Positions 5,144 to 19,987 of a stretch of 34,451 nucleotides of DNA are shown here, piece by piece. The position numbers were made by a program, and so were the translations under genes. Below the pieces are notes generated by a model. That model saw nothing but the letters and a program-made list of their open reading frames with translations, had not been told where the DNA came from and made no database searches. Each line of letters begins with the position of its first letter. Within the stretch, counting starts at the first letter, position 1. Origin of the DNA: a virus; IMG/VR virus record IMGVR_UViG_3300035689_000050, positions 1 to 34,451 of that record; one strand, 5' to 3'.

Positions 5144-5148
5144 ACTAC

Positions 5149-5156: not shown

Positions 5157-5180
5157 TAAATCTTGGATTTTTACAATAAA

Positions 5181-5207
5181 GAAAAAGCCACCCCCAAAGG
5201 GATGGCT
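5181..5207 (-). terminator. Rho-independent terminator after the 170-aa gene
   Basis: On the minus strand AGCCA/TGGCT (5 bp) and GGG/CCC (3 bp), separated by one mismatch, close on a four-base loop, and a T-run (TTTTTC) follows. It sits 33 bases after the stop of the tube-like gene and just before the portal segment. Confidence 0.8.
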
Positions 5208-5239
5208 AATCTACCTACCTATAACGAACCACGAAAGCC

Positions 5240-5752
5240 TTATGCGGTAAGACCTGCGATAATACCACTTGCAACCTCTGGAGCAAGTTGTTTTTCGCCA
5301 CCAGTGAAAGTTAGTGTATAACCATTACGGTCTCCTTGAGCAGTTCCCGTAGCAGCAGTTCCACCAGTTACATCTAATCCAGAAACGCGACCTAACAACC
5401 AATATTTATCGTTAGCATCTTGTACTACTGCCATCAGAGTAGCTTGAGCGAGAAGCAATATCTCATTGCGAGTATTTGCTTGGAGTTTGTTTAGAACAAC
5501 AGAAAGTTCTTGAGCATAAAACACAGTTCCGTTCTCTACGGAAGCGGTAACTGTTTCAGTCAAAGAACCTGTATTCTTAACTAACTCATATTTGTAGAAT
5601 ACTTTATTCGATGCTTTAGTAATAGCAGAAACGATACCAGAAGCCTCTGTAACCGCAGTTACGTTTGCGTGATTGATTAACCACACAGCTTTGATACCGC
5701 CTAAACTATCTTTGCAATCGAGTGTGTACCCTTGAGTTAAAGCACAAGGCAT
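5240..5752 (-). CDS. Probable major tail (tube)-like structural protein
   Basis: A 170-aa beta-rich protein starting 57 bp after the capsid stop. Features: MPCALTQGYTLDCKDSLGGIK at the start, a middle helix (QANTRNEILLLAQATLMAVVQ), and a glycine/threonine-rich end (GTAQGDRNGYTLTFTGGEK). This arrangement is common just after the major capsid gene in Bacteroidota phages. I read it as a likely tail-tube or other abundant virion protein because no other tube candidate is present in the tail block. Alternatively it is a capsid decoration protein. A hairpin precedes it and a strong terminator follows, so it can be made from the same message as the capsid in large amounts. Confidence 0.55.
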   Translation of the reverse strand: MPCALTQGYTLDCKDSLGGIKAVWLINHANVTAVTEASGIVSAITKASNKVFYKYELVKNTGSLTETVTASVENGTVFYAQELSVVLNKLQANTRNEILLLAQATLMAVVQDANDKYWLLGRVSGLDVTGGTAATGTAQGDRNGYTLTFTGGEKQLAPEVASGIIAGLTA

Positions 5753-5775
5753 TTTATTAAGTTTTAAAAGTTAAT

Positions 5776-5802
5776 GGTGGGTAACCCTTAAAGCTACCCA
5801 CC
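5776..5802. terminator. Hairpin between capsid and tube-like gene (partial terminator or RNA stabiliser)
   Basis: GGTGGGTA / TACCCACC pairs perfectly (8 bp) with an 11-base loop, 6 bases after the capsid stop. On the capsid-coding strand no clean T-run follows, whereas on the + strand TTTTAATT follows. It could cause partial termination or protect the 3' end of the capsid message. Confidence 0.55.
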
Positions 5803-5808
5803 TTTTAA

Positions 5809-6750
5809 TTAGATAATGAAAGAAGCAATCTCATCCAAGAAGGCTACGTTCACACCCATCTTGAATTCGCTTACGAAACGAACTTGGTCAGCCTCTTTGG
5901 CATAGAAAAGTTCGAAACGCTCTTCCTCATTCAGAAGGTCTGTACCGAGGAACATATTGCTCAAACGGATAGCATAAATCTTATTTGTTCCGTTCAAACC
6001 TGTAGTAGCTACAACTTTGATTGGAGTACCGGGTAAGAAGAACTCGCTATCAGCCTTACCATCGAAAGCATAGTTGAACATATTAGCGTTCTTCAATGCG
6101 ATTGTGTAAGTACGGAATACATCTTGACCGCACCAGATAGTCATATCATCTTTTGCAACAACAGTTGCAGGGATTGCTTTGTAAAGAGCATCAAAAATCG
6201 CTACTACGTTAGCAGTTGTGATTGCAGTTGCAGTACCACCATAATAAGTTGCGTTGTTAGCTTCTACGGCAGAAGTACCAATCAAGGTAGTCAAACCTTG
6301 GAACTTATTCAAGTTTACGTTAGCACTTCCAGTTGAACCTTGCCAGATAGCAGTTTCAAGTTGTGAAGCGATACGAGCAGCTTTCTTGTCTGTGTAATCA
6401 GAAGCGAAAGCGATTGAATCGTAACGGCTTCCCTCTGGTAAAGCCTTCTGCAAATATTTTGCTTCTAGGTCTTTAGGGCAAAGAGATTCGTTTACTTTAA
6501 TTTTACCAACAGTTACAGTACGCTGAGTGAAAGTAGTTGAACCACTTGCGTTGAATCCGCAAGAGCCACCCGCTTGGAAGATAGCGTCAGTATCCATAAT
6601 GTTGATTGTCTCGGCAGATTTTACACCTACCATTACGTTTCCTTGACTCTTAATCAAAGAAGCGGTTTTGCTTCCGAGTACGGAAGAAGTTACCAATAGA
6701 GCTTGATTCTCTTTGGTATAATTTGCTAATGCTGAAACATCAAAAGCCAT
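5809..6750 (-). CDS. Major capsid protein (HK97-fold type)
   Basis: A 313-aa protein with no coiled-coil part. The N-terminal segment (ALANYTKENQALLVTSSVLG), the central SAETINIMDTDAIFQAGG, the GFNASGSTTFTQRTVTVGK strand and the KVNESLCPKDLEAKY segment match the style of major capsid proteins of Bacteroidota siphoviruses. It lies directly after protease and scaffold, the usual order for a cleaved-scaffold HK97 capsid. No delta domain is seen at the N-terminus, which fits a separate scaffold protein. The hairpin after the stop and the terminators on both sides suggest a transcript of its own at high level. Whether cross-linking occurs is unknown. Confidence 0.85.
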   Translation of the reverse strand: MAFDVSALANYTKENQALLVTSSVLGSKTASLIKSQGNVMVGVKSAETINIMDTDAIFQAGGSCGFNASGSTTFTQRTVTVGKIKVNESLCPKDLEAKYLQKALPEGSRYDSIAFASDYTDKKAARIASQLETAIWQGSTGSANVNLNKFQGLTTLIGTSAVEANNATYYGGTATAITTANVVAIFDALYKAIPATVVAKDDMTIWCGQDVFRTYTIALKNANMFNYAFDGKADSEFFLPGTPIKVVATTGLNGTNKIYAIRLSNMFLGTDLLNEEERFELFYAKEADQVRFVSEFKMGVNVAFLDEIASFII

Positions 6751-6778
6751 TGTTATTAAATTTTAAGTTTTTAAAAAT

Positions 6779-7363
6779 TTATTTTGCGTAATTAGAAAGA
6801 AAACGAGAGATTTTATCGTTTTTAGATTCAAAATGCTTTGTGAATTGCTTAGGTTGTGTAGGAGCAACTGAAGGAGTTTTAGTAAGTTCGATAACTACAT
6901 CAGTAAGTTCAGAGATAGCCTTAGAAAACTTATCGTTCATTTGAGCAATGTTCTCGCTCATTTTAACTTCAGCCTCTTTCTTGTAACTCTTCAACTCTTC
7001 GATTTGTGCTTCCATTTCAGCGACCTTTTTCTTCATTAATTCAACTTCTGATTCGGGTGCTTCGATTTCAACTTCAACTTCTGGTACTTTAATCTCAAGG
7101 ATTGTGCCTGTCTCATCTAAAACGATAACAGAACCATCAGCAAGAGTATGCTCTCCGACAGGAGCAGGAACTTCGTTCCCAGCCTCATCTAAAAGAGTAA
7201 CCTTACCGCCAACCTCAAGTTTATCAACCATAACTTTTACACCACTCGCTAAAACGTATTCAGCGAAATTGGCTACGGCAACCTCTGGAGCAGCTTGTGC
7301 TTCAGCGAACATTGCCTTAATTTTTAATAATGCTTCTTGTGGAGACATAAAGAATTTACCCAT
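6779..7363 (-). CDS. Capsid scaffolding protein
   Basis: About 194 aa from the ATG at 7363; the ATG at 7348 (MSPQEALLKIKAMF) would give 189 aa and is equally possible. A longer reading to 7432 is unlikely because it would be translated through the terminator hairpin 7397-7425. Residues: a short N-terminal helix, a Gly/Val strand segment (GEHTLADGSVIVLDE), then a strongly acidic run (PEVEVEIEAPESEVEL), a long coiled coil (KKKVAEMEAQIEELKSYKKEAE) and a basic helical C-terminus (DKISRFLSNYAK) as used for capsid binding. The placement between protease and capsid supports scaffolding. No catalytic residues are visible. Confidence 0.75.
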   Translation of the reverse strand: MGKFFMSPQEALLKIKAMFAEAQAAPEVAVANFAEYVLASGVKVMVDKLEVGGKVTLLDEAGNEVPAPVGEHTLADGSVIVLDETGTILEIKVPEVEVEIEAPESEVELMKKKVAEMEAQIEELKSYKKEAEVKMSENIAQMNDKFSKAISELTDVVIELTKTPSVAPTQPKQFTKHFESKNDKISRFLSNYAK

Positions 7364-7373
7364 AAATAGTAAA

Positions 7374-7387
7374 CACTTACGTAAGTG
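7374..7387. promoter_or_regulatory. 14-bp perfect palindrome upstream of scaffold-capsid genes
   Basis: CACTTACGTAAGTG is a perfect inverted repeat between the terminator 7397-7425 and the scaffold start. It could be a dimeric-protein operator or a 5' UTR hairpin of the capsid transcript. Function is inferred only from its position. Confidence 0.4.
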
Positions 7388-7396
7388 ACCAAATAG

Positions 7397-7425
7397 AAAA
7401 AGGGGAGTGTAGAAACACCCCCCTT
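7397..7425 (-). terminator. Rho-independent terminator between protease and scaffold
   Basis: On the minus strand a 10-bp stem (AAGGGG with CCCCTT and GTGT with ACAC, one mismatch) closes on a 4-base loop and is followed directly by TTTTT. It separates the XkdF-like protease message from the scaffold-capsid message. Confidence 0.85.
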
Positions 7426-7447
7426 CAAACAAAACTATGAAAACTAA

Positions 7448-8332
7448 CTATGAAACCTCTTTTAGAATATTGATAATGTCTTGCATCATCTTTTCTTCTT
7501 TGGTATCGGTTTTGTAATTAAATATCCCTTCAACCGAAAACCCTTGTACTTTGCCATCCTTAATCATTTCCCAAACCTCATCATTCTCCACCTTAAAAGA
7601 ACCAAACCAAGAGCCATCCTTAACATCTTCAAAACCTTTCATCGGATGAATACCCCTCTTTTCATCTACTATCCAACTCTCAAACATTGTTACCCCATCC
7701 ATCACTTGACCGGAATCGTGCATCAAATTTACGTTATTTTGGTAACCTTTCTTGAAATATTTTTGAGCAATCTTTTTGATAGTGTCTTTAGTAAATACAA
7801 CATAATATTCGCCATTGGAATCATTACGATAAATAGGAGTATCGGCTAACATCAAAGGACCAGAAACAATCCTTTCTTCTTCATCTTGAATCGCAAACTT
7901 CTTTTTCTCAATTGAATTAATCTTACTCTCTGCCCAACCTAAAGCGGTCTTTCCACCCCACGCATCGTACATCAACTTGCCACAACCATCTTCATAGCCT
8001 TTAGAGTTTTCTAAATCTACTAAATGCCTTGAAAGGTAAGAGTACATTCTTTTAATTGTCTCAAAAGAAATAGGCTCTCCGTTGGCTAACTGATTTGCTC
8101 TTTGCTTACCTACTGGAGTTCCGCAATCCCCCCATCCGTTTTCCTCTGTCCAATCCAAAACTCTTTTAGCGTTGTTTTTAACGGAATCCGGATAATCAGA
8201 ATACGAATCTTGAAAGGCTAAAAATGATTTCTCAATTGCAGGTCTATCAACTAAGGCTACAAAATCAACTTCGACATTCGAATCTAAATCCTCTACTATA
8301 TCTAATCGGTATATTGGTAATTGCTTTTCCAT
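7448..8332 (-). CDS. Prohead protease, XkdF-like (peptidase S78_2 family), with inserted domain
   Basis: A 294-aa maturation protease that would cut the scaffold and capsid during assembly. The family N-terminus is visible (VDFVALVDRPAIEKSFLAFQ). The catalytic His is probably His205 in NLMHDS and the catalytic Ser Ser266 in GFSVEG, the usual spacing for S78-type phage proteases. Residues ~45-138 form an extra block (YPDSVKNNAKRVLDWTEENG, GDCGTPVGKQRANQLANGE, IKRMYSYLSRH, CGKLMYDAWGG) seen fused to various phage proteins and probably a separate folded module. It follows tape measure by 15 bp and carries TCTATTTA 5 bases before its ATG. A terminator follows the stop. Confidence 0.78.
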   Translation of the reverse strand: MEKQLPIYRLDIVEDLDSNVEVDFVALVDRPAIEKSFLAFQDSYSDYPDSVKNNAKRVLDWTEENGWGDCGTPVGKQRANQLANGEPISFETIKRMYSYLSRHLVDLENSKGYEDGCGKLMYDAWGGKTALGWAESKINSIEKKKFAIQDEEERIVSGPLMLADTPIYRNDSNGEYYVVFTKDTIKKIAQKYFKKGYQNNVNLMHDSGQVMDGVTMFESWIVDEKRGIHPMKGFEDVKDGSWFGSFKVENDEVWEMIKDGKVQGFSVEGIFNYKTDTKEEKMMQDIINILKEVS

Positions 8333-8337
8333 AACTA

Positions 8338-8345
8338 TAAATAGA
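8338..8345 (-). promoter_or_regulatory. TCTATTTA element before the prohead protease
   Basis: Same octamer and same 5-base distance to the ATG (8332) as at 5149 and 15036. It occupies most of the 15-bp gap after the tape-measure gene. Confidence 0.45.
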
Positions 8346-8347
8346 TT

Positions 8348-10243
8348 TTAACTTAATCTTGCAGCCCTATTGATTCTTCGGATTCTTTCTTGTGAGTTAG
8401 TAACATCACTTTCAAGCACATAGGAACGACTTGTTGCCGAACCTAATTGCTGAATAGAAGTAGAATCTAATTGAGTACGAGTATTAACCAATGGTGCAGA
8501 AGGTATAATAGGAGCAGAACCAGATAAAGAAGAAACTGTAGGGGATTTTACACCAGCACCGCCACCACCTGGAACTTCAACGGCAGTAATTGCTCTTACT
8601 GTCTTAATACCGGTAGCAACAATAGCTGCAACGTTAGCCACCTTTGCAATAACATCAAACGGAGATGGTAAAGTAGATTTTTGTTTTAACGCTTCTGAAG
8701 CACCTTGATAAGTATTAATTAAAGCCGTTGCGATACCCAATGCTTTACCCGCAGCAGTTTCTTTACCTGCAATAGCAGAGAGATTTTGCAAGGCATTGCC
8801 TACTTCATCAAGTTGTTGCTTTTTAAATTGCGATTCATACTCGGCTATCTGAACCTTAGCTTTTGAAGCTTTTTCTTCTGCTTCTACTTCCGCTAATAAA
8901 TTATTAGTAATAGCATCCAATTCATCTTGTGAAGCCTTTATTTTAGCATCACTTGCTTCTTGCTCGGCTTGGACTTCAGCAAATAATTTGTTTGTTAATA
9001 TATCTACTTCTTCCGCAGCTCTTTGTTGTTGTAATTCTTTTCTTTGTAAATCGTATTGAGTTTGTAAAAGTAATAAGGCTTCATTTTTAGCAGCTTGTGT
9101 ACCTACACTATTTTCAATATCTTTTTTGGCTCTTTCAAATTCTAATGCTAATTTAACTTCTTCTTTTTCTCTTTCATCTTCAATTTCAGATAAAAAGATT
9201 TCGTCGCTGATTTTTATAGCTTGTTCACGAAGTTGTTTATCAGCATCTTGTATTTCTTTATTCCTTGCCTTTCTATCTTCTACAACTTTTGAGTTTTCTT
9301 CTTGTCTTTTCTTTGTTTCATCTTCAGCATCTTTGTTAATACGATTAGATTCTTGAATATCTAAAACCTCTTTATCGGTTTTAAGTTTTTTAAATTGTGC
9401 TAATTCTTCTTCGTTAAGTTTACCTGTTGTTTTTAACTTATTACGAAGAACATTAAGTTCATTTTCGTTTTGCCGTAATCTTAAATTATAAATCTCTCTT
9501 TCTTTGCCACCTAATGCCGATAAAACAGATATTTGATTACCGATATCTTGATTCATCGTTTTAGTTGATTCAGCTAATTTGTTTTGTGCCTTTTCCGCTT
9601 CAGAAGCAGAGTTTGCCCAATCCATAATTTTACTAACCAACACACCAATACCAATTGTTAAAGCACCTATTCCTGTCGCAAGAATAGCACCTCTCAAGGC
9701 TCTAAATGCTACACCAGTACCAGCAACCGCAACACCGAAAGCACGTTGAATAGCAGTAGCAGCAATAGTGGCTAATTGATAAGCTTTCTGAAATAATGTT
9801 ACACTTTGAATAACCGCTGCTAATCTTTGGAAATCTTTTACCGAATCAGTAATTGTACTTAAACCTTGTGATAAGGCTAAAGCACTTTGAACTTTTAATA
9901 AACTTTTTTCTACGTTTTCACTTTCAACACCAATTAAACCTAATGCTCCTTGAAAGGCAGTTATTCCTCCAGCGGTTGCGTTTAATGCTCCGGCAAATGC
10001 TTGAAACTTTCTTCCTGGGTCAAACAATTGTGCCGTTTCTCCAGCCTCTTGTAATGTATCTTTTAATGTTGCTACTTTTTTTGCAGCATTTACGGCTTCT
10101 TGAGAATACTCCCCAAAATTTTGTTGTGCAGCTAATAATTCAAAGTTTGCATCTTTAATTAGTTGTTTCATTTCGCCAAGCGACTGAACAACTCTTTCTT
10201 GTCCGTTAATTTCTATTTTAAAACCTACAATTTCTTGTGCCAT
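8348..10243 (-). CDS. Tail tape measure protein
   Basis: A 631-aa protein with long charged coiled coils (about residues 230-480, rich in K, E, Q: EEVKLALEFERAKKDIE, QRAAEEVDILTNKLFAEVQ). A hydrophobic region at ~150-215 (ATIAATAIQRAFG, ILATGIGALTIGIGVLVSK) could insert into the host membrane during DNA entry. There is an internal near-repeat: LFAEVQAEQEASDAKIKASQ and LLAEVEAEEKASKAKVQIAE. The C-terminal part is Ala/Gly/Ser-rich. By the usual 0.15 nm per residue rule the tail would be roughly 95 nm. It overlaps the preceding baseplate gene by one base (TAATG). A tape measure placed after the baseplate-like genes is unusual order; the call rests on composition and length. Confidence 0.75.
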   Translation of the reverse strand: MAQEIVGFKIEINGQERVVQSLGEMKQLIKDANFELLAAQQNFGEYSQEAVNAAKKVATLKDTLQEAGETAQLFDPGRKFQAFAGALNATAGGITAFQGALGLIGVESENVEKSLLKVQSALALSQGLSTITDSVKDFQRLAAVIQSVTLFQKAYQLATIAATAIQRAFGVAVAGTGVAFRALRGAILATGIGALTIGIGVLVSKIMDWANSASEAEKAQNKLAESTKTMNQDIGNQISVLSALGGKEREIYNLRLRQNENELNVLRNKLKTTGKLNEEELAQFKKLKTDKEVLDIQESNRINKDAEDETKKRQEENSKVVEDRKARNKEIQDADKQLREQAIKISDEIFLSEIEDEREKEEVKLALEFERAKKDIENSVGTQAAKNEALLLLQTQYDLQRKELQQQRAAEEVDILTNKLFAEVQAEQEASDAKIKASQDELDAITNNLLAEVEAEEKASKAKVQIAEYESQFKKQQLDEVGNALQNLSAIAGKETAAGKALGIATALINTYQGASEALKQKSTLPSPFDVIAKVANVAAIVATGIKTVRAITAVEVPGGGGAGVKSPTVSSLSGSAPIIPSAPLVNTRTQLDSTSIQQLGSATSRSYVLESDVTNSQERIRRINRAARLS

Positions 10244-12420
10244 TATTCGTATGTTAATTCAATTACTCGTAAAAATTCACATTTAGTACTTTCGGGGTTC
10301 GTAGGGTTGTAGTCAATAACTTTATTCAATCTCCACAAAGCACCATCAATATAAATTAGCTTTGAGAAATCTAAACCATAGATATCGGTTAACTTTAAAT
10401 AGACATTGCAAGTTAAAAGTTTAGAATCCTTGTCCGTAATCTCCGCAACGTAATCACTCCAGAATCCGTTGAATAAATTAGCCGAAGGATAACTAACAAT
10501 CAAAGAAAAGTAAAGTTCTTTTGGTACACCGAAGTTAATATCAGCCGTTGGTACATCGGGGTCATCTAAATGCCCACCATATCCGTAGTAAGTTAAGTTA
10601 TTAACAAGGTTTCCGGTATCGCCTTTCAAATCCCAGTTAGAAACCCCAGTAATCTTACGCACTTGCATTATTCGAATGTTATGGTCTATTTGGTCCTCGG
10701 AAGGACTTGCAGATGAAGTATTAGATAACTTAAAAATAGTAGGGTAAACCTTATCATCGTTTGCATAACTCAATAAAGGAGTAGCCGAAAATATTACTTG
10801 AGATGTTTGAATGTCATTTGCAAATTCGTAACCGGTGTCCTCAATATGGTCACCATAACCTTGTGCATAATGTTTTTGATATTCTTCATTGTAATTATCA
10901 ACATCCGGTTTATACTTAAATTCAAAGAACCTTCCATTTAGTTCACTCATTGGTTTAATCTTGAAGGCTTTGCTTCTATCAACCTTATTTGACCAATCTA
11001 AATGTGTTGCGGAATAATCATCCAATAATAGAAGGTCTACATCATCTACAAGTAATTCTTCTTCTAGGTCATTTACTTGCAAGAAGTTAGCCGTTGTGGT
11101 ATAGAAATCTATGTAAGGAATAATCTTTAAATGCTTATCCTTCATTGTATCTTCTATAATATAAAGATTGAACATCTTAACAATAGAAGCAAGAAAATCC
11201 TTTTGGTATATACCTCTTGGAATACTACTATTGACAAATATTAAATTTCCATAAGCTAACGGAGATGCAGTAGCTACAATAGTTGTAGAAGTCAAATAAC
11301 TATCTGGATAAATATAACAAGTAGAAGCACCAGATAAGTTAAATAGTTCATATTGTATAGAAAAATAATCATTGGTATTTAAAGCAATATCATAAGTTAA
11401 TGTTGTATTAAAATCAATTCTACCGGAAGGGTCTCCAACAACTACTGTTTGTGTATTTACAATAGAACCATTTTTAAATATATTTATTCTTAATGAGCCA
11501 GTTCCACCTTGTGGAATTTCTAAACTACCCGATGTATATATCGTTAACTTAGGGGTAAAATTACTTCCCAACCAATACAAAGTATCATAGCCACCAACTC
11601 CAAATTCATATCCAATAATTACAGAAGGATTTGGATATTCTGCACTTGCGGTACTTGATATTACACTATTGATAGTTATTGAATCAATATTTCCAGTAAA
11701 TTGATTATTTGTGTAATTACTTAAAAACTTTTGGTTATTAGGGATTACTAATCTCTTAAATAAGTTCGTATCAAAGAAAGGTGCTTCGTAAGTATAACCA
11801 CTTCCGGTTATAATCTTATCTAAATACTCCCTAACAAATAAAGCCGGTCTAAACGCTTTGTATGACCAGTGCTTTTTGTTTGTGGCTACTTGTCCGTAAT
11901 CAATCAACGGATAGTAATAACCCATTCCCGAAGCCGTAGTTCCCGATGCTTGTTCCCAAGAGTTTAAAATGTTTTGATATGTCCATTGATGGTCATATGC
12001 CGAGAAATCTAAATCCTCTAACTTATCATTATTTAAAGCCGTAATAAACCCGCCTAACTCTCCAAATACAACACATTCGTATTCTATGCTCCCCCTATCA
12101 ATAGTTATTTCTAAAAGGCGAATGATACCTTTGAATACTTGAATCTTGTCTACATATATAACACAACTTGCTGCTTTGGATGCGTTAAAGTTGTAACCCA
12201 CGTTATCGGCTGAAGGGTTATAGAAGTTGCTTGATGTGAACTCAAATATGTGACCGAATAATTTGTTGTTGACTGCATTACCGGGTAGGATTATTGTTTT
12301 TGAAAAGTTAGTATTTCGTGAAGCAAAATCTTGTATATCATCAATTGCATACGTGAACTCCGATGACAAATCTTTGCTTAAATCTAACCTATTATCTTCA
12401 ATGTAGATTTCAGTTATCAT
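10243..12420 (-). CDS. Baseplate / tail-tip structural protein (large)
   Basis: A 725-aa protein of a type I recognise as widespread in Bacteroidota siphoviruses. It begins with a beta domain (MITEIYIEDNRLDLSKDLSS, FTYAIDDIQDFASRNTNFSK, TIILPGNAVNNKLFGHIFEF). A middle region is rich in aromatic and Asn residues. The end is LKLTDIYGLDFSKLIYIDGA, like hub proteins that hold the tail tip. It probably corresponds to the Dit/Tal or gp27-like hub layer. No lytic or lyase motif is seen. It overlaps the upstream 400-aa gene by 4 bp (ATGA). An internal chance copy of TCTATTTA occurs at 10396-10403. Hub assignment is inference. Confidence 0.6.
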   Translation of the reverse strand: MITEIYIEDNRLDLSKDLSSEFTYAIDDIQDFASRNTNFSKTIILPGNAVNNKLFGHIFEFTSSNFYNPSADNVGYNFNASKAASCVIYVDKIQVFKGIIRLLEITIDRGSIEYECVVFGELGGFITALNNDKLEDLDFSAYDHQWTYQNILNSWEQASGTTASGMGYYYPLIDYGQVATNKKHWSYKAFRPALFVREYLDKIITGSGYTYEAPFFDTNLFKRLVIPNNQKFLSNYTNNQFTGNIDSITINSVISSTASAEYPNPSVIIGYEFGVGGYDTLYWLGSNFTPKLTIYTSGSLEIPQGGTGSLRINIFKNGSIVNTQTVVVGDPSGRIDFNTTLTYDIALNTNDYFSIQYELFNLSGASTCYIYPDSYLTSTTIVATASPLAYGNLIFVNSSIPRGIYQKDFLASIVKMFNLYIIEDTMKDKHLKIIPYIDFYTTTANFLQVNDLEEELLVDDVDLLLLDDYSATHLDWSNKVDRSKAFKIKPMSELNGRFFEFKYKPDVDNYNEEYQKHYAQGYGDHIEDTGYEFANDIQTSQVIFSATPLLSYANDDKVYPTIFKLSNTSSASPSEDQIDHNIRIMQVRKITGVSNWDLKGDTGNLVNNLTYYGYGGHLDDPDVPTADINFGVPKELYFSLIVSYPSANLFNGFWSDYVAEITDKDSKLLTCNVYLKLTDIYGLDFSKLIYIDGALWRLNKVIDYNPTNPESTKCEFLRVIELTYE

Positions 12421-13619
12421 CTGAATTGAGAGTTTATATTATTCGCTATTGAGATATCTAATTCTAAATTATAGGTCTTATCTGCGTAACGCTTTTTCTC
12501 TGTCCAAGTATTTGTACCAACTTGAACTGGAATGAAGTTATTGCCCCTTTCTAAATATATTTCCGCAGAACCAATTAGTTCTTTAATTGCTAAATAATCA
12601 ATATAACTTAACCAATCAGAAATCAATCTATAAGTTAGTTTTTGTCTTGTTGCAAATTGATTACTACCGCCATACAATACACCATAAGAATTTGCTCGGT
12701 TCATTGCATTACTTGAATATTCCCATTCAATACCTTCGAATGAACTCTTTTCTATATTTCTCGTTTGTCTGTTTACTGCGGTAAAATCCATTGTATCGTA
12801 ACCACCGAGAGCATTTAAGTAATGTAAAGTAACTACATCGTTTTGCGTACAATTCAAATATACCCTTGCGGTGTTTCTTAGATTACCCGCAATCTTTATT
12901 TTAACATCATAGTAAACAGTAGTAGAAGATATCGCAGTTGTAGCGAGATAAGCATTTATTGCTCTTGGCGAAATATCTAATAAAGCAAAATCCTTAAAGT
13001 TTACATTTGCTCCTGTGTAGTTTGTTGTTGTACTTCCGTTATAAACTGATATATCAAGAGAATGGTTTTTAGGTGTATTCTCTGCATCCGATAAAAACGA
13101 AAGGAATAAATAACCGGTTTGTAATCTCTCTTTGTTAAAGTAGATGTTTGCGTAATCTCTATTTGAAATAAAATTACCTTGGTATTGTGTTTCGTACTCT
13201 AACGGAGTAAGATACATCGGACTTGTCGGAGTATAAAGATAATCTTGAATGTAATTGTATCCGAACTTACTTGTGGTTGTTAAATCCAAATAAGTTGTAC
13301 CTCCGTACTCTTCGCCAAACTTTAATTCGTAATCTACATAAATATCCGAGCCGGTATAAGAGAAAGCAGAGGGCGTTACAACATTGGGTTTAAAATACGA
13401 TGCCCAATAGTTACGAACTATCGGAGCAACATTGAAAATACCTTTAGAAGATACAGGTTGTGGGAAACTCTTTAACCTTGCTATCAAGTCACCGCCTACA
13501 TAAACATCGCAAACATATTTAAAGTTTGTTTGTGCGGTATTCGTAGAACTCAACACGAACCACAAGGGAGCGTGAATACTTGAATAAATATCTGGGGAAC
13601 TATTGATTGTTATTGCCAT
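12417..13619 (-). CDS. Putative distal-tail / baseplate protein
   Basis: A 400-aa Tyr/Asn/Thr-rich, mostly beta protein without signal peptide or enzyme motif. It starts MAITINSSPDIYSSIHAPLWF, contains LTPLEYETQYQGNFISNRDY and RNIEKSSFEGIEWEYSSN, and closes with KKRYADKTYNLELDISIANN. This style of C-terminus is common in Bacteroidota phage proteins next to the large hub gene. It is read as a baseplate component, possibly the distal tail protein. It overlaps the gp10-like gene by 20 bp and the hub gene by 4 bp, implying tightly coupled translation and equal supply. Carbohydrate binding is possible but not shown. Confidence 0.55.
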   Translation of the reverse strand: MAITINSSPDIYSSIHAPLWFVLSSTNTAQTNFKYVCDVYVGGDLIARLKSFPQPVSSKGIFNVAPIVRNYWASYFKPNVVTPSAFSYTGSDIYVDYELKFGEEYGGTTYLDLTTTSKFGYNYIQDYLYTPTSPMYLTPLEYETQYQGNFISNRDYANIYFNKERLQTGYLFLSFLSDAENTPKNHSLDISVYNGSTTTNYTGANVNFKDFALLDISPRAINAYLATTAISSTTVYYDVKIKIAGNLRNTARVYLNCTQNDVVTLHYLNALGGYDTMDFTAVNRQTRNIEKSSFEGIEWEYSSNAMNRANSYGVLYGGSNQFATRQKLTYRLISDWLSYIDYLAIKELIGSAEIYLERGNNFIPVQVGTNTWTEKKRYADKTYNLELDISIANNINSQFR

Positions 13620-14283
13620 TTTGTCGAATTATTACTTTTATATCTTGTCCTATTACTTTTGCTATACCAGAAGTGAAGTCATTACCGAAATAAGAATCTA
13701 TTGCATTATCAAAGAATCCTGTTTTTCTTAATCCTTTTTTCTTAATGCCTACCGCCACCGCATAAGCTAAACTTTTCCTTCTTGTGCTTTCGTTTATCGA
13801 ATTAGATAGCGATTGCCTTCTTGCTTGTCTCCTCGTTATTGCTACTTCGTTTGTTCGTATTCCGTTTCTATCTACCCACGATTTAATATTTTGTAACATC
13901 GCCCTACCTACTCGAATATTCTTAAATGCATAAGGAGAATTTGGTGTTCCACTTTTAACACCTTTAACTCCTTTATTTACAAAGTCATAATATTTAGCAG
14001 CTTTTGAACCACTTGGATATCCTACCTCAATTGAGTAGCCATTTGATTCTTTTACGAGTTCTCCAGAACTAATATCATCGCTTAAAGCACCGGTATCAGA
14101 AATTCCCAAAACTTCGATATTCTCTTTTACCTTTAAAATAAAGTTAGAGGCAGAAAGAATAATATATTGTTCAAGAATTGGCAATTGATTCAATTCAGCA
14201 AAATTTGTTCTACTAGAAGCTAACCTATCTAATAGCCCACTAGATAGCAGTTCATCTTGTAATTGTTTAATGCTTTTTGGCAT
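13600..14283 (-). CDS. HK97 gp10-like tail-completion / minor tail protein
   Basis: A 227-aa protein. The middle (ISDTGALSDDISSGELV, then SNGYSIEVGYPSGSKAAKYYDFVNKGVKG) matches the pattern of HK97 gp10 / lambda gpZ-like head-tail joining proteins: a short helix, a Gly-bounded strand pair and an Asn/Gly turn. The C-terminal third is very basic (ITRRQARRQSLSNSINESTRRK), suggesting contact with DNA or an acidic partner. The ATG at 14283 overlaps the end of the -1-frame tail-chaperone extension by 17 bp. Role in completing the tail is inferred from family resemblance. Confidence 0.55.
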   Translation of the reverse strand: MPKSIKQLQDELLSSGLLDRLASSRTNFAELNQLPILEQYIILSASNFILKVKENIEVLGISDTGALSDDISSGELVKESNGYSIEVGYPSGSKAAKYYDFVNKGVKGVKSGTPNSPYAFKNIRVGRAMLQNIKSWVDRNGIRTNEVAITRRQARRQSLSNSINESTRRKSLAYAVAVGIKKKGLRKTGFFDNAIDSYFGNDFTSGIAKVIGQDIKVIIRQNGNNNQ

Positions 14284-14551
14284 ACGCTTGTTTTAACTGC
14301 TCTGCTTCGTATTCGCTTTTCGATTTAAGATATGCCAAGTTATTAAGGAATTGGAGCGTAGGTAACTCATAAGCCTCTTCAAGCGTGATTCTTTCGAATG
14401 CAGCAACCAGTTCGGTTTGGTATATCCATCCATAATACTGCATAAAGATTGATGAACCGCCTCGGCTTGATACCTCGTTAGCTTGTTCTCCATCATCTCC
14501 CGAATTAAATAATCCTTCGAACTCTTTATCCAATTTCTGTAAACTTGATAA
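14267..14551 (-). CDS. -1 frame extension of the tail assembly chaperone (gpGT-like part)
   Basis: Starting where a ribosome would resume after slipping back one base on T TTT TTT, this frame gives 94 residues. They open with LSSLQKLDKEFEGLFNSGDD and include YYGWIYQTELVAAFERITLE and LPTLQFLNNLAYLKSKSEYE, ending in LKQAYAKKH. This is protein-like and similar in style to C-terminal parts of Bacteroidota phage tail chaperones. The fusion to residues 1-160 of the zero frame would be 254 aa. The first possible independent start is a TTG at 14533, with no convincing initiation signal, so I favour frameshift expression. An assembly indel in the nine-base homopolymer would give the same picture. Confidence 0.65.
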   Translation of the reverse strand, partial: LSSLQKLDKEFEGLFNSGDDGEQANEVSSRGGSSIFMQYYGWIYQTELVAAFERITLEEAYELPTLQFLNNLAYLKSKSEYEAEQLKQAYAKKH

Positions 14552-15030
14552 AAAAAAACCACGCTTCCGAGGACTTGCGTTATAGGTGCTTCTAAAATAT
14601 CTTGCGAGTATTGTTCGTGCTTACTTGCATCGTACTTAATGACTTTCCAACCGAATAAAGTTTTCTTCATCGGCATAACCATACAAGCTGCTATCCTGTG
14701 AAGGTTAGCATTGACATCTTTTCCGAAGTGTTTAGTTTCTATGTAACGAGCAGCGGGAATCTTGCGTACATCGTAAATACACTTGTAACGCTTTCCTTTG
14801 AGTTTTATGAACCTTTCGGGTTGCGGCTTGATTTCTTCGTGGATAAAAGAAATAGCCTTCAAAAGAGGCTGCAAATCGCTTACAGGCAAGGAATCAATTT
14901 CGTGTTCCGTTAATCCGGTACAAATAGAAGCAGCACTTATTGCTAAATCTAAATCGGTAGCATCTTTACTTTTTAGGAAAAGGTCATTTAGTTGCTGCCA
15001 TTGAAATACGTTAAGGTCTTTCCAAGTCAT
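14293..15030 (-). CDS. Tail assembly chaperone-like protein, zero-frame product (gpG-like)
   Basis: A 245-aa reading frame from the ATG at 15030 (MTWKDLNVFQWQQL). Residues 1-157 look like a real protein: a helical start, ICTGLTEHEIDSLPVSD, KRYKCIYDVRKIPAARYIE. After Val158-Phe159-Phe160 the composition changes to an odd, basic sequence (RLKRLMSYLRSNSL, LNRKANTKQSS) that resembles out-of-frame translation. The convincing continuation is in the -1 frame (14267-14551). Tail chaperones in siphoviruses are usually two proteins made by such slippage just before the tape-measure region. The gene follows TerL by 30 bp, with TCTATTTA 5 bases before the ATG. The unshifted form may or may not be made. 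Confidence 0.65.
   Translation of the reverse strand: MTWKDLNVFQWQQLNDLFLKSKDATDLDLAISAASICTGLTEHEIDSLPVSDLQPLLKAISFIHEEIKPQPERFIKLKGKRYKCIYDVRKIPAARYIETKHFGKDVNANLHRIAACMVMPMKKTLFGWKVIKYDASKHEQYSQDILEAPITQVLGSVVFFYQVYRNWIKSSKDYLIREMMENKLTRYQAEAVHQSLCSIMDGYTKPNWLLHSKESRLKRLMSYLRSNSLITWHILNRKANTKQSS
14551..14557 (-). promoter_or_regulatory. Candidate -1 ribosomal slippery heptamer T TTT TTT
   Basis: In the zero frame the codons are GTT TTT TTT TAT (codons 158-161). The heptamer T TTT TTT allows both tRNAs to re-pair one base back, and the -1 frame is open for 95 codons from here. The nine-T run spans 14550-14558. Confidence 0.6.
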
Positions 15031-15035
15031 ACCCT

Positions 15036-15043
15036 TAAATAGA
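15036..15043 (-). promoter_or_regulatory. TCTATTTA element before the tail chaperone gene
   Basis: Third exact copy of the octamer at 5 bases from an ATG (15030). It is preceded by GGGTTTTT on the same strand, in the 30-bp gap after TerL. Confidence 0.45.
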
Positions 15044-15060
15044 AAAACCCTTCAGTTTGT

Positions 15061-16212
15061 TCAAGCGAATGAATACTTGCCTTGTACTGAATTTCGTGTG
15101 TAGTGTTGCCAAGCCAATCCCAAAGCTATTACGCAGTCATCGTGAAAGCCTTGCGGTGCTGAATACCTTACCCCAGTAGCGGTGTATTGATATTCAAAGA
15201 TTTCCAATTCCTCGGTTATGTGTCCTTGTGGGAATGTTATCTTTCTTTGTTGGATAGCCGAAGCCAACCCTTCCATTAGTTGCTGCTTTGATGTAGAACT
15301 AAACTTAAACCCCGATACATTTAAACCATCCCTTTGTAAGTCCTCAAAGATTGGGTCTCCAGCACCAGTAGAATCTATTAGCATCGGTATTTTGGGTAGG
15401 TTGTTAATAACTTGCTTTGTCTGTCTCCAATCCTTTTGGAAACGCTCAAAGTAACAAACCGAGCCGTTTTTATCTAGTCCTATGATTACAGTAAAGTCAA
15501 CCGACTTGGCTAAATCAATCCCAAACGCAATAGGAGACTCATAGCTGAGTTCAAACGTGCATTGCTTGATATAACTACTCCCAAAAGGATTAGCCGCATT
15601 TTCAGCCGGATTTGCCATATACTCTTGTTCGAATACAACTTCAGGTAACTGAAGCCTAGCATCATCTATTTCGGTTTTGTCAATATGTGGGTTATCGTAA
15701 GTGGTAAACTTAAAAGATTGCCAATCGGGTTCTCCAGATTTAAGAAATAAAGAGTAAAAGAAGTTCTTGCCTTTTGGGGTGGAGATAAACAAGGCTCTTC
15801 CTTTGTAGTCGGTTAGGGTAGGTCGGATAGAGTTGAGCCATCCGTTTTCTAGGTCTGGGATAAACGAAGCCTCATCTATAACTCCGAAGTGAAACTTCCT
15901 TCCACGAAGGTTATCTAATCTTTCTCCAGTAAAGAAGTAAACCGCTCCCCCATTTGGGAACTTAATTGATAGTTCTGATTTGTTAGCTTCAAAGGGTACG
16001 GCTTTTGCTAATTGGTCAAAGAATACTCTTGCTAGATTGTAAGTTGGGGTAACATAAAATACTTGTTTGCCTTGTAAAGCATTGACAATGATTTCTATTT
16101 GCGAAAGTTCCGACTTTCCAAACCTTCGCCCTGCCATTACAACTCTAAACCTACTTGTGCTATCAAGTATTGCTTGTTGGTTAATATGTGGAGTTGGTAA
16201 CTCAATTCTCAT
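15061..16212 (-). CDS. terL: Terminase large subunit
   Basis: The 383-aa packaging motor. ATPase part: Walker A in MAGRRFGKS (residues 26-34), Walker B in VIDEAS (111-116), coupling motif near ALFISTPKGKNF (140-151). Nuclease part (RNase H-like fold): FGIDLAKSVDF (Asp233), LIDSTGAGDP around 287, and GFHDDCVIALGLA (Asp358/Asp359) near the C-terminus. These are the acidic residues expected for DNA cleavage. Length is compact but both domains are complete. Its ATG overlaps the TerS-like stop by 4 bp. It forms the packaging complex with TerS and the portal. The headful or cos mechanism cannot be decided from this sequence. Confidence 0.95.
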   Translation of the reverse strand: MRIELPTPHINQQAILDSTSRFRVVMAGRRFGKSELSQIEIIVNALQGKQVFYVTPTYNLARVFFDQLAKAVPFEANKSELSIKFPNGGAVYFFTGERLDNLRGRKFHFGVIDEASFIPDLENGWLNSIRPTLTDYKGRALFISTPKGKNFFYSLFLKSGEPDWQSFKFTTYDNPHIDKTEIDDARLQLPEVVFEQEYMANPAENAANPFGSSYIKQCTFELSYESPIAFGIDLAKSVDFTVIIGLDKNGSVCYFERFQKDWRQTKQVINNLPKIPMLIDSTGAGDPIFEDLQRDGLNVSGFKFSSTSKQQLMEGLASAIQQRKITFPQGHITEELEIFEYQYTATGVRYSAPQGFHDDCVIALGLAWQHYTRNSVQGKYSFA

Positions 16213-16574
16213 AGAATTGTTTTGCCATTTACGAATACAACTTCAATCCTTGAATCGGTGCTAACTTGTTGAACCTCTTTCGGTTTTCCATACACACGAG
16301 TTAATAAAGTTTCAACCGAATACAACGAACCCTTCTCCAAACTCTTCCTCATAGCATTTGCGATTGTCTTTTCTAGGATTGTAGCCTTAGGATTATCCCA
16401 AACCTCTTTTAAATCATCCAAATCCATCTGAAGCATAACTTGGATAGTATCGTTAATCTCGGATAGCTTATATCCTTGCTCTCTTAAAAGGGTAACATAC
16501 TTCTTCGGTCTGCCGTTAGGGTTTGCTACCTCGCCTTTTTTAAACTGATGTTGTATAATATCCTTTGCTGCCAT
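16209..16574 (-). CDS. Probable terminase small subunit
   Basis: A 121-aa protein directly before TerL (4-bp ATGA overlap). The N-terminus contains FKKGEVANPNGRPKKY, the GNPNGRPKK-type signature of the DUF5681-like proteins often found as the DNA-recognition partner next to terminases. The rest is helical (LQMDLDDLKEVWDNPKATIL, TIANAMRKSLEKGSLYSVET), consistent with oligomerisation, and the end is a short strand (RIEVVFVNGKTIL). No classic helix-turn-helix is obvious. The position makes the TerS role likely; family membership is from the motif. Confidence 0.72.
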   Translation of the reverse strand: MAAKDIIQHQFKKGEVANPNGRPKKYVTLLREQGYKLSEINDTIQVMLQMDLDDLKEVWDNPKATILEKTIANAMRKSLEKGSLYSVETLLTRVYGKPKEVQQVSTDSRIEVVFVNGKTIL

Positions 16575-16577
16575 TGT

Positions 16578-16599
16578 GCTATTATTCTGCTATTATTCT
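16578..16599 (-). repeat. Tandem 11-bp duplication before TerS
   Basis: AGAATAATAGC occurs twice in direct tandem on the minus strand (16599-16589 and 16588-16578), ending 4 bases before the TerS ATG. The upstream copy includes the methyltransferase stop. It could be a protein or ribosome contact site or just a replication slip. Confidence 0.5.
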
Positions 16600-17735
16600 A
16601 AAGGTAACCCATTCCTTTTGATTATTAACGAAGGGTCTAGCTTTTTCATTCTGTCAATTATTACTTGACAATACTTTGGGTCTAACTCCATCCCGTAGCA
16701 CTTTCTTTTAAGCTGATGTGCAGCAACCATTGTAGAACCAGAACCGAGAAATCCATCGAATATTAAACTACCTTTTATTTGGTCATTGATAATGTCAGAT
16801 AATACTTTTATTGGCTTTTGAGTAGGATGAACTCTTTTATCTTTTTCTCCCTCTCTTATCATTCCATTCCAAATCTGTTTATAGATTCTTACTCTTGTTT
16901 CAAAACTACACCAAGCCATTTCGCCATCTGCGAAATTGTTGCTGTTCATATCTCCTCTCTTATCCCATATTATCCAACTCGAACTGAATGGAAGGAAATC
17001 AGTAAAATAGTTTCCTCCCCAAATAATAAAGTTTTCAAATCCTAAACTTATACAAGTTTGATAAAATTCTTTTGCAGTATCTGTTGTGTCATCAGCAATC
17101 ACCTTGCTATAAACTCCATTTTTAGCTTTATTACCTCCTCCTACTTTTCCATTATTTCCAACAATATCTATTCCATAAGGAGGGTCAGTAAATACCATAT
17201 CAGCCTTTTGACCATTCATTAGCTTTGCTACTTGGTCGCTATCTGTACTATCCCCACAAAGCAAACGATGCTCTCCTATCTCAAATAAATCTCCAATTAC
17301 AATATCCGTTTCTATTCCACCATCTGGTGCTGCGAAGTTATCTTCTTCGGCTTCTAAAACCTCTGCTTCAAAACCTGGAATATCTAAACCCCACTCTTCA
17401 AGTTTATCCGAATCCCAATTATTTGCCAAATCGTTCCAATCCCATTCCCCGAAGCCTACGTTGTCTTTGATTATAAATTCTTTTTGTTGTTCTTCGGTTA
17501 GCTCGGATGCTTTTATAATGTGAACTTCTTTTAATCCAGCTTCTTGACAAGCCTTTAAACGCATATTCCCACCCAAGACAATCATTTCTTCATTTACAAC
17601 GATAGGTCTAATCTCAAGCATTTGCGGAAACTCTTGGATTGACTTAATGAGTTTCTTAAACTTTTCATCCTTAATAATTCTTGGATTATTAGGATTGGCT
17701 TTTACTTTCGAGATTGGTATTAATTCAGATTTCAT
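16593..17735 (-). CDS. ParB-like domain fused to beta-class DNA methyltransferase
   Basis: A 380-aa two-domain protein. Residues 1-100 are ParB/Srx-like (ISKVKANPNNPR, then LGGNMRLKACQEAG). Residues ~143-365 are an amino-methyltransferase with TDPPYG (183-188, catalytic DPPY) before FLGSGST (329-335, SAM binding), the order of the beta group, plus RVHPTQKP. It probably methylates adenine N6 or cytosine N4 in phage DNA; no partner endonuclease is seen, so protection against host restriction is the likely use. I start at the ATG at 17735 because an upstream extension to 17807 lies inside the glycosyltransferase gene; overlap is then only 11 bp. The target site is unknown. Confidence 0.88.
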   Translation of the reverse strand: MKSELIPISKVKANPNNPRIIKDEKFKKLIKSIQEFPQMLEIRPIVVNEEMIVLGGNMRLKACQEAGLKEVHIIKASELTEEQQKEFIIKDNVGFGEWDWNDLANNWDSDKLEEWGLDIPGFEAEVLEAEEDNFAAPDGGIETDIVIGDLFEIGEHRLLCGDSTDSDQVAKLMNGQKADMVFTDPPYGIDIVGNNGKVGGGNKAKNGVYSKVIADDTTDTAKEFYQTCISLGFENFIIWGGNYFTDFLPFSSSWIIWDKRGDMNSNNFADGEMAWCSFETRVRIYKQIWNGMIREGEKDKRVHPTQKPIKVLSDIINDQIKGSLIFDGFLGSGSTMVAAHQLKRKCYGMELDPKYCQVIIDRMKKLDPSLIIKRNGLPLE

Positions 17736-18366
17736 ATTCGGATTGGAAGATAGTATAATCGTTGTTGTCTTGGTATTTTTGTGTTTCTCTTGCCCATAAG
17801 TAATCACACTTACTCAATCCTTCATCTTTCATCTTTCTGTATGGAGTGTCTTGACAGACATCGTGTCCTATGTGTTCAGACCTTAAATCGTGCAAATAGT
17901 AGTTTATGTGACCAGTCATCTTTAACCGATAGGCATAATCCGAATCTTGCATTCCGTAGGGGTCGTAAGCCTCATTAAAATAACCAATCTTTTCTATTGC
18001 CGACATCGGTATTAATACATTTCCAAAGGAAGCATCTTGGGGGTGTATTTGGATTCCGTTTATTGTTTGTAAAGGATTAATTCCTTCTACGCAATGTATT
18101 CCGCACATCCCAGTATTTGGGATATTTAAAGCTGCTTCTACCATTCTTAAAAGCCAATTGTCTGGCATTAAAATATCGTTTGCCATTGTTACCACCGCAT
18201 CAAAGGCTTTGCTTCTTGATATTCCGTAGTTCAATGCTCTTGATATCCCTTTCATTCCAACTTGAGTAAAAGAAAAATCATACCCTGCGTTAGAGAAGTT
18301 TTTGTTCTTTACTTGCTCTGTAAAGGTGTGCCTTTCGTAATCTAAAAAGATAATATTAACGAGCAT
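17725..18366 (-). CDS. Glycosyltransferase, GT2-like (GT-A fold)
   Basis: A 213-aa protein resembling family 2 glycosyltransferases but short. GISRALNYGISRSKAFDAVV is the typical helix before the metal site; TMANDILMPDNW carries the acidic NDI in place of DxD. FGNVLIPMSAIEKIGYFNEA and DPYGMQDSDYAYRLK match the acceptor-side signature in which the QDSD acidic pair is often catalytic. The N-terminal beta-alpha-beta part is reduced. It probably transfers a sugar to phage DNA, virion or host surface. It belongs to a four-gene set ahead of the packaging genes. Its ATG overlaps the acyltransferase stop by 11 bp. Substrate unknown. Confidence 0.75.
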   Translation of the reverse strand: MLVNIIFLDYERHTFTEQVKNKNFSNAGYDFSFTQVGMKGISRALNYGISRSKAFDAVVTMANDILMPDNWLLRMVEAALNIPNTGMCGIHCVEGINPLQTINGIQIHPQDASFGNVLIPMSAIEKIGYFNEAYDPYGMQDSDYAYRLKMTGHINYYLHDLRSEHIGHDVCQDTPYRKMKDEGLSKCDYLWARETQKYQDNNDYTIFQSEYEI

Positions 18367-18832
18367 TGATTCCTAATTCTTTAACCGGAACTCCGGCATA
18401 TTTATAATATGGTTTCAATATAGATTTCTTTCCTACAAAAGCCGAAGCACCAATCATACAACCTTCTGGTATTCTTACCTTTTGGTGTATGACCGCATTT
18501 AATCCTATGTTACAAAACTTTTCAATAATAGAGTGACCGCCTATTTTAGCACCGCAACTTATGGTTACACCTTCAGCAAGGATAGCATCGTGACCAACGT
18601 GAGAATGTTTCATCAAATAGCAATCCTTACCTATAACAGTTCTTTTGTCCGTTCCCGAATCAACAGTTACTAATCCGGTTAATCTTGCTCCCGACATTAT
18701 CAAAACCAATCCTTCACAATCCTCTCTGCCTTTCCATTCAGCAGGCGCACCTATAATACAATAAGCACCGATATAAACATTCGGCTCTATTATAACTCCA
18801 GGATAGATTATTGCGGTTTCGTGTATAAACAT
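18356..18832 (-). CDS. LpxA/NeuD-like hexapeptide-repeat acyltransferase
   Basis: A 158-aa left-handed beta-helix protein made of imperfect hexapeptide repeats (IYPGVIIEPNVYIGAYCIIG, VTISCGAKIGGHSIIEKF, VIHQKVRIPEGCMIGASAFV). KHSHVGHDA (His76, His78, His81) resembles the catalytic His region of LpxA-like acyltransferases, and the end KYAGVPVKELG resembles the usual GNPAK-type finish. It would acylate a sugar, possibly a nucleotide sugar used by the neighbouring glycosyltransferases. The gene is overlapped at its 3' end by the GT2-like gene, so the products are made together. Exact donor and acceptor cannot be told. Confidence 0.8.
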   Translation of the reverse strand: MFIHETAIIYPGVIIEPNVYIGAYCIIGAPAEWKGREDCEGLVLIMSGARLTGLVTVDSGTDKRTVIGKDCYLMKHSHVGHDAILAEGVTISCGAKIGGHSIIEKFCNIGLNAVIHQKVRIPEGCMIGASAFVGKKSILKPYYKYAGVPVKELGINAR

Positions 18833-18853
18833 TAGTTTGCTACTTTGAGATAA

Positions 18854-18976
18854 TTAAGCTCTTCCTTGCCCACGATAGTTACGTTCCTTTCTATTATGTT
18901 TATTATGTCCTTTATGAGCCTTTCCTTTTCTTCGCTTTCCGAAAGTTGTCTTTCCAATAGTTCCTGATTTAGCCAT
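18854..18976 (-). CDS. 40-aa highly basic protein
   Basis: A short gene between the two larger sugar-modification genes. It starts at ATG 18976 and ends at TAA 18854. The product MAKSGTIGKTTFGKRRKGKA is followed by a His/Asn/Lys-rich half ending in NYRGQGRA. Nearly half of the residues are Lys, Arg or His and there are almost no acidic ones (one Glu). Similar tiny GTIGKTTFGKRR-type proteins seem familiar from Bacteroidota phages, but I know no function. A nucleic-acid-binding or DNA-condensing role is a guess from charge. It is separated from the GT-B gene by 3 bp, so it is in the same message. Confidence 0.65.
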   Translation of the reverse strand: MAKSGTIGKTTFGKRRKGKAHKGHNKHNRKERNYRGQGRA

Positions 18977-18979
18977 AAC

Positions 18980-19987
18980 TCAATTACCATTCATTGATTG
19001 ATATAATTGTTTTCTTTTCTCGTTTACTTTAAATAAACTAAAGTTTGCAACTGCCCATTCGAATAGTTCCAAACCTTTCTCCTGTCTATAAATAGCATCT
19101 TGCGTGACTTTTTTAATCTCCTTGTACCAATCCCCTTGCTGATTAATCTGAATCATTGGCGAGTTTAAATAAGGTTCAACGTGACTACCAATAACAGGAA
19201 TCTTCTTTGAAGCTGCTTCTAATAGTTTTAGATTGGATTTCATTGAATTAAATTTCGTTGCTCTTAAGGGAACAATAGAACAATCCGCATCGTTATAGAA
19301 GTTCATATACTCCGTAACTGGAAGGAATCTACGAGTACCGCCTAACTTTAAACCACAAGTAAAGTTTGAAATCATCCTATGCCAAATAGCAGCAGAGCCT
19401 TCCCCAGAATCATCAAAGCCACAAAGTTGAAAGTACACTTTACTTTTTAAATAAGAGTCGGAAGCTACTTTCTTAAAAGGGAACTGAATTAACTTAATAT
19501 CCTCTTCGTGTGTTATTGAGCCAGTATAAACAAACTTAACTTTATCGGTGTACTCTCTAACATCTGTAAATTGGTCATTACCATACGGAAGTGCATTCGG
19601 TAGAATAGCCACATTTGAGTTTATAGGTCTAATCTCGTTCCATAGTTTTTCGTTAGTACAAGTAACTAAATCTGCTGCTTTTATATGATTAATAATTTCT
19701 TGTGTTGGATAAACGCTTTCCAATATGTGAGACCTATCTAAAATCCAATAGTCATCAATATCGCAAATCATTTTAAAGCCATACTTGTTTCTTTTTTCTA
19801 AAAGAGTTTCAAGTGGTGTGCCAGGTATAAACCTATTAAATAAAACAATATCAAAGTTTTCTTTTAATACCTCATCGGTTAAGGTATCGGTAAAGAAAGC
19901 ATAAGTTTTCTCTAAATAGTAAACCGGTAGCATTAATCGGTGGTAACCAACACCGCTACCTTGTGATGTTAAAACAAGTATTCTCAT
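18980..19987 (-). CDS. Glycosyltransferase, GT-B fold (GT4-like)
   Basis: A 335-aa protein of the two-Rossmann GT-B kind. The N-terminal domain starts MRILVLTSQGSGVGYHRLML with the Gly-rich acceptor loop, then FKMICDIDDYWIL, and NSNVAILPNALPYG links the domains. The C-terminal domain has KVKFVYTGSITHEEDI and SNLKLLEAASKKIPVIGSHV, where KLLEAAS is the usual donor-nucleotide region (E-x7-E-like, partly degenerate). It is comparable to enzymes that build surface polysaccharide. Together with the LbH acyltransferase and the GT2-like protein it suggests sugar modification of phage or host. It overlaps the AT-hook gene by 4 bp. Confidence 0.82.
   Translation of the reverse strand: MRILVLTSQGSGVGYHRLMLPVYYLEKTYAFFTDTLTDEVLKENFDIVLFNRFIPGTPLETLLEKRNKYGFKMICDIDDYWILDRSHILESVYPTQEIINHIKAADLVTCTNEKLWNEIRPINSNVAILPNALPYGNDQFTDVREYTDKVKFVYTGSITHEEDIKLIQFPFKKVASDSYLKSKVYFQLCGFDDSGEGSAAIWHRMISNFTCGLKLGGTRRFLPVTEYMNFYNDADCSIVPLRATKFNSMKSNLKLLEAASKKIPVIGSHVEPYLNSPMIQINQQGDWYKEIKKVTQDAIYRQEKGLELFEWAVANFSLFKVNEKRKQLYQSMNGN

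Follow-up and report, generated by a model that had tools for sequence, protein, structure and literature searches.

Frameshifting in the genes of tail assembly chaperones is textbook knowledge. Chaperones of the gpG/gpGT type bind the tape measure and tail tube proteins, are absent from the virion, and are needed in a set ratio. In phage lambda a single start yields two products, with a -1 frame change on G GGA AAG giving access to a second domain encoded in the -1 frame. Five zero-frame codons follow the lambda slip site and gpGT holds nearly all of gpG; the genes stand among tail genes in the order V-G-T-H. Phage P2 likewise makes two chaperone products, gpE and gpE+E', by a -1 change on a T-rich heptamer (T TTT TTG), here with six T's and a G, and has six zero-frame codons past the heptamer. 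The frameshifts of tail chaperones in the literature cited here are taken to be ribosomal, and the zero frames of lambda and P2 stop within 5-6 codons of the slip.

We analyzed a gene on the minus strand of an IMG/VR virus entry of 34,451 bases, referred to in full as the window. It resembles the lambda pair in its single start, two products related by a -1 change, a second domain in the -1 frame and neighbouring tail genes. Unlike lambda, it slips on a run of nine T's (T9), after which the zero frame runs on for up to 85 codons, some 45 of them under selection. Our main reading, to which we assign a probability of about 0.82, is that a chaperone-like gene undergoes a programmed -1 frame change with two products; the figure holds for slippage by either polymerase or ribosome. 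The new elements are a T9 that is invariant across a clade and a selected double-coding overlap of 45 codons.

Slip site and reading frames

The chaperone-like open reading frame runs from 15030 to 14293, with T9 at 14558-14550. Codons 158-161 read GTT TTT TTT TAT, and the heptamer T TTT TTT sits in the zero-frame phase of an X XXY YYZ site, as it does in all 188 relatives. Without a shift, 85 codons follow the slip up to a stop at 14293 and the product has 245 amino acids. With a -1 shift at T9, 94 further codons lead to a stop at 14267 and a chain of 254 amino acids. Re-reading of the frame bore out the original prediction as to the position of T9, its placement at codons 158-160, the frame lengths and the 85 open zero-frame codons. 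The features of the locus are as follows.

14551..15030, minus strand: shared N-terminal part of both products, 160 codons, putative chaperone-like domain (dN/dS 0.07)
14550..14558, minus strand: T9 slip site with heptamer T TTT TTT (nine T's in 188 of 188 relatives)
14293..14550, minus strand: zero-frame extension of the 245-aa product, 85 codons and stop (47-85 codons open in each of 32 representatives)
14419..14550, minus strand: conserved dual-coding stretch, about 44 codons, a helical extension in the zero frame and a helix plus linker in the -1 frame (zero-frame dN/dS 0.31; conserved motif; predicted helices)
14267..14551, minus strand: -1 continuation, 94 codons and stop, giving the 254-aa fusion (offset kept in 187 of 188 relatives; dN/dS 0.20 beyond codon 44)
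14465..14518, minus strand: predicted disordered acidic linker of the -1 product (pLDDT <50; -1 frame dN/dS 1.6)
14273..14449, minus strand: T-like helical domain of the -1 product (confidently predicted helices; invariant GW, L, N, Y and K)

We propose that this is a tail-chaperone-like gene of a Bacteroidota-type phage, in which one start would give two proteins through a -1 change at an obligatory run of at least nine T's. In the unshifted, G-like product of 245 amino acids, the 160 shared residues would be followed by about 42 residues of folded helical extension and by an unselected tail. The shifted, GT-like protein of 254 amino acids would have, in place of the helical extension, a short helix, then a flexible linker and then the helical T-like domain. 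Synthesis of both products is what we infer from the conservation described below.

Conservation of the T run and of the frame offset

The two parts of the gene were first compared with related loci by tblastn, and wider searches brought the set to 188 distinct sequences, the most distant at about 27% identity. None of them departs from T at any of the nine positions. The -1 part starts at the same base where the N part ends in 103 of 103 testable relatives in the first comparison and in 187 of 188 later. These figures strongly support the programmed -1 frame change that had been predicted from the window.

On a tree of 184 of the sequences, the third bases of the two TTT codons at the slip showed no parsimony changes, while 11 comparable two-fold pyrimidine columns showed 18-38 third-base changes each. 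Since phenylalanine is encoded elsewhere in the gene by TTT in 53% and by TTC in 47% of cases, the T run is not a by-product of codon bias, and chance conservation by this route was rejected on both counts. In DNA this rich in A and T such runs are not rare by chance: a first-order Markov model gives 5.4 A or T runs of at least nine bases as expected per window, and T9 is the sole one in this window. The alignments thus indicate that the conservation of T9, unlike the mere presence of such a run, is far beyond chance.

A homologue with the full chain in one frame had been named in advance as evidence against a frame change. One such case was seen (L220), in which a tandem duplication of about 56 bases across the T9 site puts both parts in one frame; the other 187 relatives keep the -1 offset. 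The direct duplication (L220:2649-2770) occurs in a single contig and could be either an assembly error or a natural variant with constitutive fusion. In another relative the chaperone frame carries two stop codons (L056:1649-2371), possibly as a degenerate copy or again as an assembly error.

Polymerase or ribosome

Two kinds of slippage could produce the frame change. RNA polymerase slipping on T9 would yield mRNAs with one extra U, and bacterial RNA polymerase is known to slip efficiently on runs of 9 A/T (PMC5009743), with Tn where n>8 listed as a substrate (PMC3711429). The alternative is a ribosomal slip of the lambda G/GT or P2 E/E+E' kind, by tandem movement of tRNA-Phe on U UUU UUU; the extra T's would then be incidental. 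The two explanations differ in this molecular step alone.

In 176 of 184 sequences a T-to-C change at the last base of the heptamer would alter neither encoded protein, and it never occurs. This speaks against the ribosome alone, given that U_UU.C is no less slippery than U_UU.U in Escherichia coli and that the heptamer U_UU.U_UU.C is used by IS elements (PMC4066793). The run of at least nine T's is kept against silent interruption, with 0 changes compared to 18-38 at the comparable columns. Homologues have T9, T10 or T12 only, and runs of 7 or 8 T's were never seen among them, a further point against ribosomal slippage as the sole mechanism. Alignment of homologues differing in run length had been suggested as a check on the original prediction, and in all such homologues the -1 product is retained.

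Neither of the two usual ribosomal stimulators, a hairpin or pseudoknot downstream or a Shine-Dalgarno-like site upstream, was found. The mean folding z-score was about 0 over five downstream segments in 32 representatives, using plain folding, which has pseudoknots outside its reach, and a downstream stem-loop was rejected on these grounds. Upstream codons vary across the 188 relatives and contain no conserved Shine-Dalgarno-like site.

Other observations fit the ribosome well. The heptamer is in the right phase, U_UU.U_UU.U is among the motifs that shift at more than 0.1% without a stimulator in E. coli (PMC4066793), and the two outer T's are explicable by hydrophobic codons. Lambda and P2 are themselves precedents for ribosomal slippage in chaperone genes. 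By a published heuristic, a constant -1 direction marks ribosomal frameshifting and a direction that varies among orthologues marks transcriptional realignment (PMC3711429). The direction in our set is always -1, and the variation associated with realignment was not seen.

Because the T run is kept where a T-to-C change would be silent in both frames, and because no RNA stimulator was found, slippage of RNA polymerase on T9 seems to us more likely than tandem slippage of the ribosome on U UUU UUU by itself, although both may contribute. As a reading of sequence conservation we consider polymerase slippage slightly better than an even bet, while purely ribosomal slippage seems to us a serious alternative with somewhat less than even odds. 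The assumption of ribosomal slippage in the original prediction is in any case not supported as such, since the conservation pattern fits RNA polymerase slippage at least as well. The closest parallels to polymerase slippage at T9 are the T9/A9 realignment sites of Thermus dnaX and Shigella mxiE (PMC3711429, PMC5009743), which have in common with it an unbroken coding A/T run of at least nine bases with frozen length. The phage gene differs from them in shifting always by -1. The T9 clade could serve as a natural test of polymerase versus ribosome slippage in Bacteroidota phages.

Putative chaperone identity

The name tail assembly chaperone given to this gene beforehand rests on the two-product architecture together with Pfam matches below cut-off and weak fold matches. 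The family Phage_TAC_7, described as chaperones of the E/41/14 type (the P2 E type), was matched below the Pfam cut-off in 7 of 25 members with a best E-value of 2.3e-4, and in the window's own record with an E-value of 1.9e-4, also below cut-off. The HK97 gp13 structure 2ob9 aligned weakly to residues 1-69 (Z 3.0 over 64 residues, rank 47). A Foldseek search of the PDB gave nothing significant, and HHalign gave no match to lambda gpG. Related UniProt entries carry no function name. The genes around the slip site that bear on identity are listed below.

15061..16212, minus strand: terminase large subunit (TerL), directly upstream (phrog_2, E 8e-49; Terminase_6N, E 3.8e-15)
13600..14283, minus strand: following gene, sharing 17 bases with the end of the -1 frame (weak match to the HK97-gp10-like PF04883, E 0.004, below cut-off)
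8348..10243, minus strand: probable tape measure gene (631 aa), lying four genes downstream (phrog_9483, E 3.6e-5; phrog_3336, E 2.1e-4)

The assignment of the last of these is also consistent with its long, helical-looking sequence with a hydrophobic block. Tail chaperone genes of the known types may be expected directly upstream of the tape measure gene, as E+E' is in P2. The gene studied here is placed directly after TerL instead, with the probable tape measure gene four genes on, and the arrangement also differs from V-G-T-H in lambda. The order on the minus strand at 2793-16574 is unusual, running from a TerS-like gene through TerL, the chaperone-like gene, tail genes and the tape measure gene to protease, capsid and portal, so that tail genes sit between the terminase and head genes.

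The position after TerL, the sub-threshold Pfam match and PHROG matches that are mostly of unknown function would all be compatible with some other head or tail assembly factor that uses the same two-product device. We consider this unlikely. Phage_TAC_7 is the only Pfam family with a phage role matched by several members, gpG/gpGT is typified by a -1 two-product architecture of this kind whose second domain is helical, and the HK97 chaperone aligns to the N-terminal residues, though only at the low score given above. By analogy, the gene probably works like a gpG/gpGT chaperone pair, and this role is inferred with sequence-family membership below threshold. We file it as a chaperone-like variant and not as a proven family member, because many codons separate the slip from the end of the first frame and the tape measure gene is not adjacent.

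Occurrence in divergent phages

No close relatives were found among 50,697 phage records, either by DNA match or by tblastn with the N part. Weak matches of a distant member to sequenced phages turned out to be unrelated proteins. One relative is in a contig binned as Chitinophagaceae, and Foldseek pointed to gp38 of the marine flavobacterial Nonlabens (Persicivirga) phage P12024S as a distant homologue; a Bacteroidota host is therefore likely.

The homology to gp38 was confirmed by HHalign (95%, E 2e-8), with an alignment that stops at the same Phe-Phe. The P12024S gene pair gp38/gp39 is also directly after TerL, has T9 in the same codon phase, and has a T-like -1 part of 83 residues. Its -1 frame (FFLSFRERL...WYHTFN...ILYWLAYQSD) is laid out like the T-like part in the window, and HHalign of this short single sequence against the T-like part was weak. 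The pair differs in being annotated as two hypothetical proteins, an example of how gene callers miss the long product, and in its zero frame, which ends 25 codons past the slip, so that the overlap is short.

The TerL of P12024S-type phages shares about 22% identity with the window's TerL. A TerL-guided search starting from P12024S added some 15 divergent contigs, whose TerL is as little as 38% identical to that of P12024S. These have T9, T10 or T12 at the equivalent place and a -1 product of 81-94 residues, many with the motif WGWY. None has 7 or 8 T's, where the run scan required at least 8 T's and the absence of shorter runs rests on a separate check of TerL loci and a motif check. Among the 80 TerL loci, most of those below about 47% identity to P12024S TerL had no recognisable adjoining chaperone and were uninformative. 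The longer runs are T12 (L395:4845) and T10 (L389:3146); with T12 the protein gains one Phe and the frames stay as they are, which would fit a requirement for a minimum length only.

In Flavobacterium phage 6H, which matches weakly by fold, the run is T6 and a -1 stop comes directly after it; this phage lacks the device. A T-like open reading frame nevertheless stands behind in the -1 frame (L377:10352-10927), separated from T6 by the stop, and would need another route to expression.

Overlapping frames and predicted folds

The zero frame past the slip was originally dismissed as unlikely basic sequence. It is open for 47-85 codons in 32 of 32 representatives, against an expectation of 12-28 codons on average when the -1 frame is recoded synonymously. 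Its first 45 or so residues are conserved (YQVYRNWI..S.DYLI.EMM...QAE...Q.LC..MDG) in relatives with N-part identity down to about 40%. Along the gene, the codon-position profile first shows zero-frame coding with a variable third base, then flattens where both frames are constrained, and finally shows -1 coding, with the variation on the second base of the zero frame.

Past the slip, zero-frame dN/dS is 0.31 in codons 0-44 and 0.90 further on, compared with 0.07 in the N part. For the -1 frame the values are 0.35 (codons 0-20), 1.6 (codons 20-35, where the linker lies) and 0.20 (after codon 44). Misreading the N part in the wrong frame, as a control, gives 2.4. Simple dN/dS is biased for overlapping genes, and the contrast between frames is nonetheless clear. 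Since the first 45 or so zero-frame codons are conserved, under purifying selection and predicted to be helical, this stretch is a dual-coding overlap. The sequences show selection on both frames over about 45 codons after T9, as they show the conserved frame change and the conserved run of nine T's. The last 40 or so zero-frame codons look like an unselected basic tail. The earlier dismissal thus stands for these last codons and fails for the first 45.

The two parts of the fusion were modelled separately with AlphaFold. The shared N-terminal part has pLDDT mostly of 80-94. In the zero-frame product, helices are predicted at 150-170, spanning the slip, 172-181 and 186-202 (pLDDT about 70-86), and most of 201-245 is of low confidence. 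In the -1 part, residues 14-31 are predicted to be disordered, with helices at 37-55, 59-63 and 67-95 (pLDDT about 85-93); the invariant GW, L, N, Y and K are found in this part among relatives.

Because zero-frame helices are predicted over the stretch where the -1 part is a disordered linker, the models indicate that the two products swap a folded extension for a linker plus a T-like domain, with the DNA of the extension overlying that of the linker. The long product would lack the folded part of the short one, as up to 85 zero-frame codons follow T9 and about 45 of them are selected. If true, the switch exchanges one domain for another rather than merely adding one. A wider scenario, in which polymerase stuttering on an obligatory T9, and not the ribosome, sets the chaperone dose ratio in a wide group of Bacteroidota phages and one branch has overprinted the linker with a folded subdomain of the short product, is tentative and in our estimate falls just short of an even chance.

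A TTG-started open reading frame of 88 amino acids in the -1 frame (14533-14267), together with selection on that frame, could suggest an internally started C-terminal protein made separately from the 245-aa product, with no fusion. This is very improbable, given that conserved -1 coding (FFLS..LD) starts already at the slip base, upstream of the TTG, and that the silent bases of the T run are frozen. A sequencing or assembly indel in an error-prone homopolymer, with one continuous 254-aa frame as the true gene, would be conceivable for one contig by itself and can be dismissed, since the same run and offset occur in 188 distinct sequences from many assemblies and in the cultured phages P12024S and P12024L, and the zero frame past the run is itself conserved and selected.

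Genes near the packaging genes

Two further regions of the minus strand attracted our attention. At 16593-17807 there is a protein of 404 amino acids in which a ParB-like domain is fused to a DNA methyltransferase domain. By the packaging genes, the region 17725-19987 encodes a glycosyltransferase (phrog_7162, E 5e-59), a hexapeptide-repeat acyltransferase-like protein and a small glycosyltransferase-like open reading frame.
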